Shown here in pieces: positions 4,367 through 43,840 of a stretch of 43,840 bases of DNA. The stretch lies in assembly GCA_025361645.1 (NCBI GenBank), contig JANYKI010000128.1:1-43840 (forward strand), given 5' to 3'. The notes below the pieces were generated by a model that saw nothing but the letters and a program-made list of their open reading frames with translations, was not told where the DNA came from and searched no databases. The stretch is from Methanothrix sp. (GTDB lineage Archaea; Halobacteriota; Methanosarcinia; Methanotrichales; Methanotrichaceae). The position numbers and the translations under genes are program-made. Each line of letters begins with the position of its first letter. The first letter of the stretch is position 1.

Positions 4367-7300
4367 ATGCAGGTCTTACACTCTCTCTGGGACACGGAAA
4401 CTTTCTACATATGGGCCGAATCCTCAGCTTTGCCCCTCTCTGTCGGCAAATCAGATGGTCGCAGGAAAAAGCATCCATCGTCTCATCTCCATCCCTTTGC
4501 CCTGCCCGGTGTAGAGCTCAAGAAGCTTTTTTCACAGATATTACCCAGGGGCGGCGACGGCTGCCGGGTGGAAGCACTGTCTCTTCGCCTTCCTGCAGGT
4601 ATTTCCGGACCTCTTCCTTCCCCCTGGCTTTTGCGGGAGGACTACCTATCTGAAAAACCATCTCTACTGGGCACCTACTCCGTCCCGACCCTGGCCCTGG
4701 AACCCGGCCCCGCCCTCGATCTTCTCCTGGAATTGCCCATCCATCCACCTTTTGGCACAGCTTATGCAAACTCCCTGCTCTTCTGGTCACAGCTGGCCCT
4801 CTTTTCTCTGGAGCTAGTATCGCGTGAGCAGTTTGTGCCCGCCGTCCGGAAAAGCAGAGCCCTCTGGAATGCGGTGATTGACGAGCCGGATCAAGAGCGT
4901 CTCAATATCTTCAGCAGGTCCCTGCCGCCCAGTTGTCGTGGTCTGTCGCCCCTGCCTCTCCCATCGCCTGAACAGGCCCCGATGGCCACCCCCTCCCGCC
5001 TGGTCCACAGCTTCGTGAACATCGCTGTGGACGCACTGGTGCATAGCAGCCTGAACGGGGTCAGTCTCCTGCCTGCTAAGCGAGGCCGCAAGCCCAAGAT
5101 TGTCCCACTGCCGATTCAATTCCTCTCCGCCCTCACCTGCCAGGAGACGGACCTGTCTGCCTCTGCCCCGGATCTGGCCTCCTTCTCTTTAAAGATGGAC
5201 GCCTGGACGGCACAAATCCATCCAAAAATTGAGGACGTTCCTTTTCGCACCTGCTTTCGCCTGGAAGCACCAGGACTTGAAAAAGCCGCCTGGTGTCTCG
5301 CCTTCTTCCTCCAGGCCAAGGATGACAGAAGCCTGCTGGTTCCGGCAAAAGAGGTATGGCAGACCAAATCTCGTGCCCTCACCTTCCTCAAGAAACGGCT
5401 CAAAAATCCTCAAGAGCAACTCCTGGCCGACCTTGGCAAAGCATCTAGGGTCGTTCCTCTGATGGAGAAGTGCCTGGAGAGCGCCCGCCCCACCGGCCTG
5501 GAGATGCAAACCGAGGAGGCCTATTCCTTCCTGCGGGAGTCGGCTCCTCTCCTGGAGCAGAATGGTTTCGGGGTGCTGCTGCCCTCCTGGTGGGAGAAGC
5601 CCGATTCGCGCCTGGGCATAAAGCTGCAGCTCAAAGGTGCGGTTAAAAAAGAGGGCCAGGTCGGCCCGGCCTTCTTCGGGCTCGACTCTCTGGTCAGTTA
5701 CGACTGGCAGCTCTCCTTAGGCGGCGATATCCTCACCAAGGCCGAATTCGCCGAGCTGTCCCGCCTCAAGGTCCCCCTCATCCAGATAAGGGGTGAGTGG
5801 ATGGAGCTTCGCTCCACAGAGATCGAGGCCGCCATTGCCTTCTTCCAGAAGAACCAGGACAGAGAGATGACCCTGGCTGAGGCTCTGCGCCTGGGCCAAA
5901 GCCTTCCCGGCCAGAGTCTTCCCGATGTTGATTCAACCCTACCCGTTCTCGGTGTTCAGGCAGAGGGCCAGATCGAACAAATGCTTAACGCCCTGGCCAA
6001 TCCCGGCAGTCTGGAGGAGGTCTTGCCGCCCCAAGAGTTCCAGGGCACACTACGCCCTTACCAGCTGCGGGGCGTCTCCTGGCTGGAATACCTGCACAGG
6101 ATAGGTCTCGGAGCCTGTCTGGCGGACGATATGGGCCTGGGAAAGACTGTGGAGCTGATAGCTTTTCTCCTGCGTGAACGAGAGCATGAAGATAGGTCCA
6201 AAGACCCCCTCCAGCCGGCTCTTCTCATCTGTCCCATGTCCGTGGCCGGCAACTGGCAAAAGGAGCTGGAGCGTTTTGCCCCCAGCCTGCGGGTCCTGGT
6301 GCATCATGGCCACAATCGTCTCACAGGTCCCGGCTTCCTGCAAGAGGCAACAAAGAACGACGTGGTCATCACCACTTATGCTCTCGCCCAGAGAGACGAG
6401 GAGCATCTGTCTGCCGTCACCTGGAGCCATTTGATCCTGGATGAGGCCCAGAATATCAAGAACCAGGCCGCTCGGCAGACCCAGTCCATAAAACGGCTCC
6501 ATTCAGGGCAGAAGATCGCTCTCACCGGAACCCCAGTCGAGAACAGGCTCTCCGAGCTATGGTCTATCATGGATTTTCTCAATCCCGGCTACCTGGGGTC
6601 TTTTCAATCTTTCCGCAAGAATTTCGTGCTGCCAATTGAAAAATACAAAAATAAGAGCTGCTCCGAGACGCTGCGCTCCATAATTCAACCTTTTGTCCTG
6701 CGTCGGCTCAAGACCGATCCAACCGTTATCCAGGATCTGCCTGAGAAGATGGAGATGCGGGTCAACTACAATCTCACCGCTGAGCAGGCATCGCTTTATG
6801 CCGCCGTGGTCGAGGAGATGCTCAGCCGCATAGAATCGCTGGACGGCATAGAGCGCAGAGGTATGATCCTGGCCGCTCTGACCAAGCTGAAGCAGATCTG
6901 TAACCACCCTGCCCTCTTCTTGCAGGACGGAAGTGCTCTGGCGGGCCGTTCAGGAAAGCTCTCCCGTCTGGAGGAGATGCTTTATGAGGTCTTAGCCGGT
7001 GGCGACAAGGCCTTGATCTTCACCCAGTATGCCGGAATGGGGGCCATGCTCAGACACCATCTTCAGGAGAAGCTGGGAGTCGAGGCCCTGTTCTTGCACG
7101 GAGGAACCTCCCGAAAGCAGAGAGATGATATGGTCCAGAGGTTCCAGGCGGGTGGATCGCCCATATTCATACTCTCTTTAAAGGCGGGCGGCTCTGGCCT
7201 CAACCTGACCCGAGCGAGTCACGTCTTTCACTTTGATCGATGGTGGAACCCTGCCGTGGAAAATCAGGCAACCGATCGCGCCTTTCGTATCGGTCAGAAG

Positions 7301-7501
7301 AAGAACGTCTTTGTCCACAAGTTCGTGTGTCTCGGCACTCTGGAAGAGCAGATAGACCGGATGATCGAGCAGAAGAAGGCCCTGGCTGAATCGGTAATAG
7401 GGACTGGTGAGTCCTGGCTGACGGAGCTTTCCAATGAGGCGTTAAGAGATATGCTCTCCTTGCGGCGGGATGCCGTAAGTAGCGAGGATGATGATAAATG
7501 A
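4367..7501 (+). CDS. SNF2/RapA-like DEAD-box helicase
   Basis: LRPYQLRGVSWLEYLHRIGLGACLADDMGLGKTVE, ILDEAQNIKN, LTGTPVENRLSELWSIMDFLNPG, SLKAGGSGLNLTRASHVFHFDRWWNPAVENQATDRAFRIGQ. Confidence 0.97.
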   Translation: MQVLHSLWDTETFYIWAESSALPLSVGKSDGRRKKHPSSHLHPFALPGVELKKLFSQILPRGGDGCRVEALSLRLPAGISGPLPSPWLLREDYLSEKPSLLGTYSVPTLALEPGPALDLLLELPIHPPFGTAYANSLLFWSQLALFSLELVSREQFVPAVRKSRALWNAVIDEPDQERLNIFSRSLPPSCRGLSPLPLPSPEQAPMATPSRLVHSFVNIAVDALVHSSLNGVSLLPAKRGRKPKIVPLPIQFLSALTCQETDLSASAPDLASFSLKMDAWTAQIHPKIEDVPFRTCFRLEAPGLEKAAWCLAFFLQAKDDRSLLVPAKEVWQTKSRALTFLKKRLKNPQEQLLADLGKASRVVPLMEKCLESARPTGLEMQTEEAYSFLRESAPLLEQNGFGVLLPSWWEKPDSRLGIKLQLKGAVKKEGQVGPAFFGLDSLVSYDWQLSLGGDILTKAEFAELSRLKVPLIQIRGEWMELRSTEIEAAIAFFQKNQDREMTLAEALRLGQSLPGQSLPDVDSTLPVLGVQAEGQIEQMLNALANPGSLEEVLPPQEFQGTLRPYQLRGVSWLEYLHRIGLGACLADDMGLGKTVELIAFLLREREHEDRSKDPLQPALLICPMSVAGNWQKELERFAPSLRVLVHHGHNRLTGPGFLQEATKNDVVITTYALAQRDEEHLSAVTWSHLILDEAQNIKNQAARQTQSIKRLHSGQKIALTGTPVENRLSELWSIMDFLNPGYLGSFQSFRKNFVLPIEKYKNKSCSETLRSIIQPFVLRRLKTDPTVIQDLPEKMEMRVNYNLTAEQASLYAAVVEEMLSRIESLDGIERRGMILAALTKLKQICNHPALFLQDGSALAGRSGKLSRLEEMLYEVLAGGDKALIFTQYAGMGAMLRHHLQEKLGVEALFLHGGTSRKQRDDMVQRFQAGGSPIFILSLKAGGSGLNLTRASHVFHFDRWWNPAVENQATDRAFRIGQKKNVFVHKFVCLGTLEEQIDRMIEQKKALAESVIGTGESWLTELSNEALRDMLSLRRDAVSSEDDDK

Positions 7502-8391
7502 GCCCTTATTGGAATTACTACGAAAAGACTTCGCCAAAGGCGGTCAAGAACGGCCTGAAGGCCAAGAGTAAGCGTGGCTCCATCGGAGAGACCTGGTGGT
7601 CAAAACGATGGGTCAGTGTTCTTGAGTCCTTCGATATGGGCGCCAGGCTCTCGCGTGGTAAAAGCTATGCCCGAAAAGGCCAGGTCATCTCCATCGATAT
7701 CGAGCCGGGAGTGGTGCAGGCCCGTGTGCAGGGCTCATTTGCGAAGCCCTATGATGTATCGATAAAACTGGTACCCCTATCATCGCAAGAGTGGGAGAAA
7801 GCCATAGCTGCCATGGCCTCTAAAGCGGTATTCTCAGCCCGCCTGCTCTCCGGGGAGATGCCGCAAACAATCGAGGAAGCATTTTCCGATTGCGGCATAT
7901 CTCTCTTTCCCAGGAAGGGCGCGGATCTGTTGACGGATTGCTCCTGTCCGGATTGGTCCAACCCCTGCAAGCACATAGCTGCCGTCTATTATCTCTTGGC
8001 TGAGCAGTTCGATCATGATCCTTTTCTCATCTTCAAGCTTAGGGGCAAATCCAAAGAGGAGATCGTCGAGGCCCTGCGTAGTTTCCGTTCTGCCGGGGCG
8101 AAAGAAGAATCCGAGCGCTCTCGCTCTCCCGATTCTGTCTCTGTCTCCCTCATCGAGGATAAGGCCAGGCCTCTGGAAGAGTGCCTGGATTGTTTCTGGC
8201 AAAAAGGAAGCGAGCTTGATTTGCTGGTGATCAATCCCAAGAGTCCGCCGGTGGAGAACGCAGTCCTAAAAATACTTGGAGAAGCCCCCATCTCCATTGG
8301 CCGGGCCAATTTGGCTGGCTTGCTCAAAAAGGCATACGTAATAGCAGGTCAGGCCGCACTCCAGAAGGCCGCGAGGGGAAGCGAAGATTAA
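7498..8391 (+). CDS. SWIM zinc-finger protein, partner of the SNF2 helicase
   Basis: CSCPDWSNPCKHIAAVYY (CxC...CxH SWIM motif); ATGA overlap with the helicase stop. Confidence 0.93.
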   Translation: MSPYWNYYEKTSPKAVKNGLKAKSKRGSIGETWWSKRWVSVLESFDMGARLSRGKSYARKGQVISIDIEPGVVQARVQGSFAKPYDVSIKLVPLSSQEWEKAIAAMASKAVFSARLLSGEMPQTIEEAFSDCGISLFPRKGADLLTDCSCPDWSNPCKHIAAVYYLLAEQFDHDPFLIFKLRGKSKEEIVEALRSFRSAGAKEESERSRSPDSVSVSLIEDKARPLEECLDCFWQKGSELDLLVINPKSPPVENAVLKILGEAPISIGRANLAGLLKKAYVIAGQAALQKAARGSED

Positions 8392-43625: not shown

Positions 43626-43669
43626 TATCTGATTCGGGATCGAAGTAATCGTGTGTAGAGAGGTTCCTT

Positions 43670-43840
43670 TGGCAAAGCTACGTCAACTACCACGCCCTAA
43701 AGGACGTGGCTTGTGACTACGCAAAAAGTCGTGTCACTATCGGTCGGTTGACTCTTCTCCCAGGCGGAGATGTGGCAGACCATGGCCTGCTGGCGACCTG
43801 CTCAGAGGTGAGAGCTTCAATTGCCTTAAGTTCTGCTCAG
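43670..43840 (+). ncRNA. Candidate IscB/TnpB-associated RNA (HEARO / omegaRNA-like), truncated by the window edge
   Basis: GTCAAC (43682-43687) pairs with GTTGAC (43747-43752), enclosing hairpins CCACGcCC-taaa-GGaCGTGG (43690-43709) and GTGACtACG-loop-CGTGTCAC (43713-43737). No ORF here. Confidence 0.6.

Follow-up and report, generated by a model that had tools for sequence, protein, structure and literature searches.

The nuclease TnpB is the ancestor of Cas12. In ISDra2, a guide is derived from RNA of the transposon right end, and TnpB cuts the donor joint, which favours retention of the element (PMC8612924). In the ISDra2 omega-RNA (or reRNA), a pseudoknot forms between a 5' strand within the stem 1 loop and the terminal nucleotides, which are preceded by a stem with a UUUA loop (PMC10097598). 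Other RNAs of archaeal IS200/IS605 elements include the haloarchaeal sotRNAs RF02656 and RF02657, which are omega-RNAs as well (named in PMC12558985), and HEARO RNAs (RF02033) are those of IscB elements. PATEs of Haloquadratum are transposase-free elements related to IS605-type transposons; they have IS605-like near-terminal palindromes, no terminal inverted repeats, no target duplication and a length too short for a transposase (PMC3119063). IStrons are IS605-type elements that likewise contain a large structured RNA, a group I intron (PMC4227781). Here we compare these systems with an element found at the right edge of a 43,840-nucleotide stretch of Methanothrix DNA (the window).

Results

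The window is the end of contig C125 in a genome of 2.43 Mb in total. Its last 159 bases recur with 99% identity at the end of contig C126 and inside contig C111, and the sequence preceding GTCAAC is unrelated among the three copies (Table 1). The window element runs past the contig end and resumes with the first bases of C114 (locus L040 1-183), a contig whose start falls within the left half of another copy and which shows an IS200/IS605 left end and a DUF7557 ORF; between C125 and C114, ~138 bp of the window element are unassembled. The element is complete within C111 (L003, about 1175-1659), where it is ~485 bp long and consists of a left end, a 46-amino-acid DUF7557 ORF on the opposite strand, a ~285-nt structured RNA and a right end; no IscB, TnpB or TnpA was found in this copy. 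Subterminal CCTTYAGG hairpins of like sequence and orientation are present at both ends of L003 and its relatives, which have no terminal inverted repeats; the L003 left-end hairpin reads CCCCATCC-TTTA-GGGTGGGG.

We located empty sites for this insertion in the relatives G010, G008 and G021 (loci L147 to L149, G010 being L148), in which the window flank and the C114 flank are directly joined. In G010 (L148), the site is TTTTTTTAT followed immediately by GTAGCTTTGCCAAAGGAACC, the 3' half being identical to the window flank. The window element has thus inserted exactly 3' of TTTAT and without target duplication, in the order 5'-TTTAT, element, flank. A viral copy of 526 bp (L141) also has its joined flanks uninterrupted in another viral contig. 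In all, empty sites are present in L147, L148, L149 and L176. TTTAT is found upstream of most copies, and TTTAC or TTCAA upstream of some. These sites document past mobility and define the boundaries and anatomy of the element. The original prediction was right in placing here the end of an IS200/IS605 transposon whose architecture is that of a guide-RNA scaffold for an RNA-guided nuclease. Target-specific insertion without duplication and subterminal hairpins are those of an IS200/IS605 element, but the TnpA and TnpB of an autonomous form are missing; in being transposase-free and too short for a transposase, with near-terminal palindromes, no inverted repeats and no target duplication, the element resembles PATEs.

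The genome contains 15 matches to the TnpB zinc-ribbon family and a single Y1 transposase. The latter is a stand-alone, IS200-like locus with CCTTYAGG-type hairpins on both sides (L055 1423-1887; G000 C71:26413-26766) and represents a candidate helper for non-autonomous elements.

Table 1. Features of the element and its flank at the right edge of the window
Feature	Position	Strand	Remarks
Host flank just outside the element (GTAGCTTTGCCAAAGGAACC); putative guide	43662..43681	-	20 bases match the uninterrupted G010 site (L148) exactly; guide role by analogy with ISDra2 (PMC8612924)
Right-end part of the non-autonomous IS200/IS605-type element	43682..43840	-	Sharp boundary at GTCAAC in copies with differing flanks
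Terminal GUUGAC, 3' strand of the proposed pseudoknot (outer helix of the original prediction)	43682..43687	-	Pairs with 43747-43752
Hairpin CCACGUCC-UUUA-GGGCGUGG	43690..43709	-	Two-sided changes in 6/8 pairs
Second hairpin, GUGAC...GUCAC	43713..43737	-	Two-sided changes in 5/8 pairs
CGACC, 3' strand of stem 1	43742..43746	-	Covariation with 43794-43798 across both RNA and TnpB elements
GUCAAC, 5' strand of the proposed pseudoknot, within the stem 1 loop	43747..43752	-	Pairs with 43682-43687
3' portion of the 5' RNA domain (R1)	43792..43840	-	Same sequence as L003 1501-1549
GGUCG, 5' strand of stem 1, context GCAGGUCGCC	43794..43798	-	No other 5-mer within 110 nt can pair with CGACC

We analysed the pairing and strand of the right-end RNA. 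The outer helix (GTCAAC/GTTGAC) and the two hairpins that it encloses (43682-43752) are present as originally predicted and exceed chance in shuffled folds and by covariation. The minus strand of these 71 nt folds at -29.2 kcal/mol (z -4.3), with 0/200 shuffles as good, and the plus strand at -23.3 kcal/mol (z -2.4), with 5/200 shuffles equal or better. In an alignment of 28 related right ends, 96% of the cells are paired, and 71 cells show two-sided changes vs 18 in shuffles (0/500). The pseudoknot pairing is kept in 28/28 right ends, with an A-U to G-U change in 9. On the minus strand, G-U pairs outnumber A-C cells in this and in a further alignment (35:13 and 25:10), and we therefore assign the RNA to the minus strand. 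If made, it reads from right to left in the window; the plus-strand reading proposed originally is disfavoured by both the G-U bias and the fold energies. The tail containing CAATTGCCTTAAG belongs to the same RNA, as the 3' part of its 5' domain. The hairpin next to the terminus is like stem 4 of the ISDra2 omega-RNA, with its UUUA loop, and is at the same time the right-end palindrome for TnpA.

This strand assignment conflicts with a HEARO RNA of an IscB element whose nuclease ORF would follow just past 43840, as the original prediction had it. A weak match to HEARO (RF02033) does exist, and the first ~52 positions of HEARO resemble the complement of the element's transposon end. The best score, however, is 18.4 bits on the plus strand against a gathering cut-off of 83, and the alignment covers positions 1-52 of the 211 in the model, with nothing matching the remainder. 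The same partial likeness is found opposite the tnpB strand at the TnpB right ends L007 and L008 and hence reflects a shared transposon-end palindrome rather than membership in the family. A search of the genome with PF14239 (RRXRR, IscB) gave no match, as was the case for the control genomes. Where a nuclease was expected, the complete copy has the RNA domain and the DUF7557 ORF, and the far side of the window insertion on C114 holds an IS200/IS605 left end and DUF7557 ORF with no nuclease. A HEARO match at the gathering score is absent, but an element boundary is present, and of the two scaffold types proposed the HEARO/IscB type is contradicted and deserves next to no credence, whereas the TnpB type is retained.

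We compared the right end to TnpB loci of the same genome. The right ends of the loci on C39, C91 and C1 contain the same module, downstream of tnpB and on its sense strand. The C39 element is 1221 bp long, starts after TTTAT and encodes an intact-looking TnpB (RuvC motifs GVDLG, LEDL and DADLNAS, read by eye), and its left end closely resembles left ends of RNA elements in G021 and G008. In the shared module, GUCARC lies in the loop of GGYYG/CRRCC and is able to pair with the terminal GUUGAC, a strand that a UUYA-loop hairpin precedes. The GGNNG strand of RNA elements is located 35-56 nt upstream of GUCARC, mostly in the same GCAGG context, and that of TnpB elements 7-9 nt upstream. One pairing-capable 5-mer is present within 110 nt in each of 19 cases, and 19/19 pair vs 9.7 after shuffling (0/10,000), a figure that is inflated by shared ancestry and refers to cases picked by us, with copies lacking a candidate (e.g. 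L004, L005, L057, L077, L084) excluded from the count; reduced to seven distinct combinations, the test yields 16/5040 permutations. The stem 1 partner is absent from some short (L004, L084) and decayed (L057, L077) relatives, and mobility therefore does not require the RNA.

The anatomy of the insertion would have the RNA terminate where the transposon ends on the right, with host flank beyond it and TTTAT plus flank as the empty site; sequence and covariation together provide stem 1, a pseudoknot to the terminal nucleotides and a stem with a UUUA-type loop. The best reading of the 3' part, from sequence comparison, is a TnpB-type omega-RNA scaffold with the host flank as putative guide. The RNA would share with ISDra2 (PMC8612924, PMC10097598) its right-end origin, a 3' host flank as guide, a TAM that equals the insertion target, stem 1 with a pseudoknot to the 3' terminal nucleotides and the UUUA-loop stem. 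Unlike the ISDra2 omega-RNA, it does not overlap a tnpB gene, contains an extra covarying 5' domain of ~180 nt and has a stem 1 loop ~30-45 nt longer, and its association with TnpB is putative. The sotRNAs RF02656 and RF02657, like it RNAs of archaeal IS200/IS605 elements, differ in that neither has an Rfam match to the element. As no nuclease gene is present, yet the RNA contains a TnpB-type scaffold, the element probably borrows TnpB made elsewhere in the cell. We thus favour, as the probable explanation, a non-autonomous PATE-like IS200/IS605 element with a stand-alone omega-RNA that uses TnpB in trans.

The 5' domain (model R1, 179 positions) is located between the DUF7557 ORF and the right end, in the place that the tnpB gene occupies in TnpB elements. 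Only its 3' portion lies in the window; the remainder is visible in the complete copy (L003 1392-1549; 135 bits). R1 is found in several Methanothrix species, with one copy in G004, a near-complete genome of two contigs, in another genus of the family (G031) and in six viral contigs, and records with RNA-motif matches are those of Methanothrix/Methanosaeta. In an alignment of 16 distinct sequences, which was built with the model and is biased to its structure, with several helices first spotted by eye in separate sequences, 95% of the cells pair and two-sided changes occur in 32/37 pairs; all measures lie above all 500 shuffles, and sliding the partner strand leaves ~33-44% pairing. RNAalifold returns a largely similar structure from the same alignment, with 37/40 of its pairs compensated, and a single viral sequence folds into it alone (z -4.2). 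An Rfam search of L003, L076, L078, L079 and L080 (E <= 1) found no family matching the 5' domain and no group I intron. No R1 domain was found in intact TnpB elements, which counts against a TnpB guide; the sole R1 match near a tnpB (L123, 34 bits) is ~900 bp from a broken gene. We also considered the interior as a decayed tnpB, but tblastn with the TnpBs of the genome finds nothing tnpB-like in the 5' domain, its only hits being weak and close to the termini in some elements.

Two alternatives bear on this domain. In a plain PATE or MITE, the hairpins would have no function beyond presenting single-stranded DNA ends to TnpA, with the RNA fold being a relic or incidental. TnpA generally requires the end hairpins of IS200/IS605 elements, and derivatives of ~160-220 bp with left and right ends only exist (L004, L084). 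The 5' domain and stem 1 are nevertheless distant from the ends, their pairing is conserved by two-sided changes, and the excess of G-U over A-C cells is RNA-like, all of which renders this alternative very unlikely. The RNA could otherwise be functional but not a TnpB guide, acting as an IStron-like ribozyme, as a regulatory RNA under the control of DUF7557 or as the guide of some unrecognised protein. In favour of this, no relative of the 5' domain is known, DUF7557 often accompanies it, and IStrons demonstrate that other large RNAs can reside in IS605-type elements (PMC4227781). Unlike an IStron, the element has no group I intron match, and we do not claim that insertions are spliced; in addition, stem 1, the pseudoknot and the UUYA hairpin of the 3' part are common to the TnpB elements of the same genome. 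We regard this second alternative as unlikely and retain the omega-RNA using TnpB in trans.

The 46-amino-acid ORF matches DUF7557 (E 6e-7) and, weakly, the VapB antitoxin, and we take the protein to be ribbon-helix-helix-like. Within this genome, DUF7557 is found in these elements only. The ORF is divergent from the RNA, and several RNA elements are without it. Silent changes between diverged copies are near saturation and amino-acid changes are few (e.g. dN 0.19, dS 2.4), indicating that the ORF is under selection. Our guess is that the protein acts as a repressor. In L094 1-350 (G026:C36), a DUF7557 ORF lies beside an IS605-type left end and divergent from an apparent TnpB start (MRTAYKFRMYPNKQQ...) that is truncated where the contig stops, possibly a TnpB element with the same accessory gene. 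This locus, judged by eye, is the only one in which DUF7557 adjoins a tnpB start; most other DUF7557 genes of the genus have no TnpB match nearby, and we thus do not claim DUF7557 as a general TnpB companion.

Several related elements were observed. A diverged sub-family (L178, L183, L113, L078; two members viral) has a DUF7557 ORF, a like RNA layout (<=18 bits with R1) and a left end starting near CATGAAGACCTCGGGG. A second nuclease-free sub-family (L044 1477-1871, L046 904-1298, L089, L090) is ~330-395 bp long, inserts after TTCAA and has a possible stem 1, GGGUG/CACCC; its different interior may be structured, too. Very short elements of ~160-220 bp consist of left and right ends only (L043 about 1255-1420, L084 404-626). 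Two viral contigs contain the same RNA-only insertion (L142 about 7180-7600, and L144) with AGTTTTCT on either side, for which a joined-flank search found no empty site. In two IMG/VR contigs (L143, about 2405-2930, and L145 in the corresponding region), a DUF7557-RNA element lies inside a rearranged C39-like TnpB element, with the C-terminal part of tnpB on one side and TnpB left-end-like sequence on the other; this surrounding TnpB element is 89.5% identical to the C39 TnpB.

Discussion

From these comparisons we infer a course of events in which the RNA is expressed, bound by TnpB and used for cutting, with a role for DUF7557. A Y1 transposase (TnpA) supplied in trans would mobilise the element and insert it exactly 3' of TTTAT-type pentamers. 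The minus strand would encode the ~285-nt stand-alone RNA, with a TnpB-type scaffold as its 3' part and the flank guide thereafter. TnpB from a different element, such as the one on C39 in this genome, may bind this RNA, and the complex would cut the TTTAT-plus-flank site left by excision. Repair from a sister copy would then restore the element and favour its retention, in the manner described for ISDra2 (PMC8612924). Control of the shared promoter may fall to the divergent DUF7557 gene.

Taken a step further, the conserved 5' domain and the divergent DUF7557 gene could form a mobile RNA module of a new kind. This would be a regulated omega-RNA transposon without a nuclease, present in viruses as well, that relies on the TnpB of its host or of a rival to be retained and whose 5' domain does something that no known omega-RNA does. 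We advance this only tentatively and consider it rather doubtful. PATEs carrying an omega-RNA have reportedly been noted in work on Geobacillus. The element differs from Haloquadratum PATEs in its conserved structured RNA and its often selected DUF7557 ORF, neither of which appears in the accessible part of the PATE description (PMC3119063). A literature search, with most subscription papers outside its scope, returned no account of this RNA, of stand-alone TnpB omega-RNAs or of a link between DUF7557 and TnpB; we claim no priority.

Our findings suggest that selfish elements can exploit TnpB without encoding it, by supplying the guide RNA only, and that elements of this kind are also present in viral contigs from the same habitat. 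The RNAs form a defined family, absent from Rfam 15, with candidate TnpB partners in one genome, and the use of TnpB in trans by non-autonomous elements can therefore be tested directly. With the additional RNA domain and the DUF7557 gene come new questions of how such an RNA is stabilised and switched.
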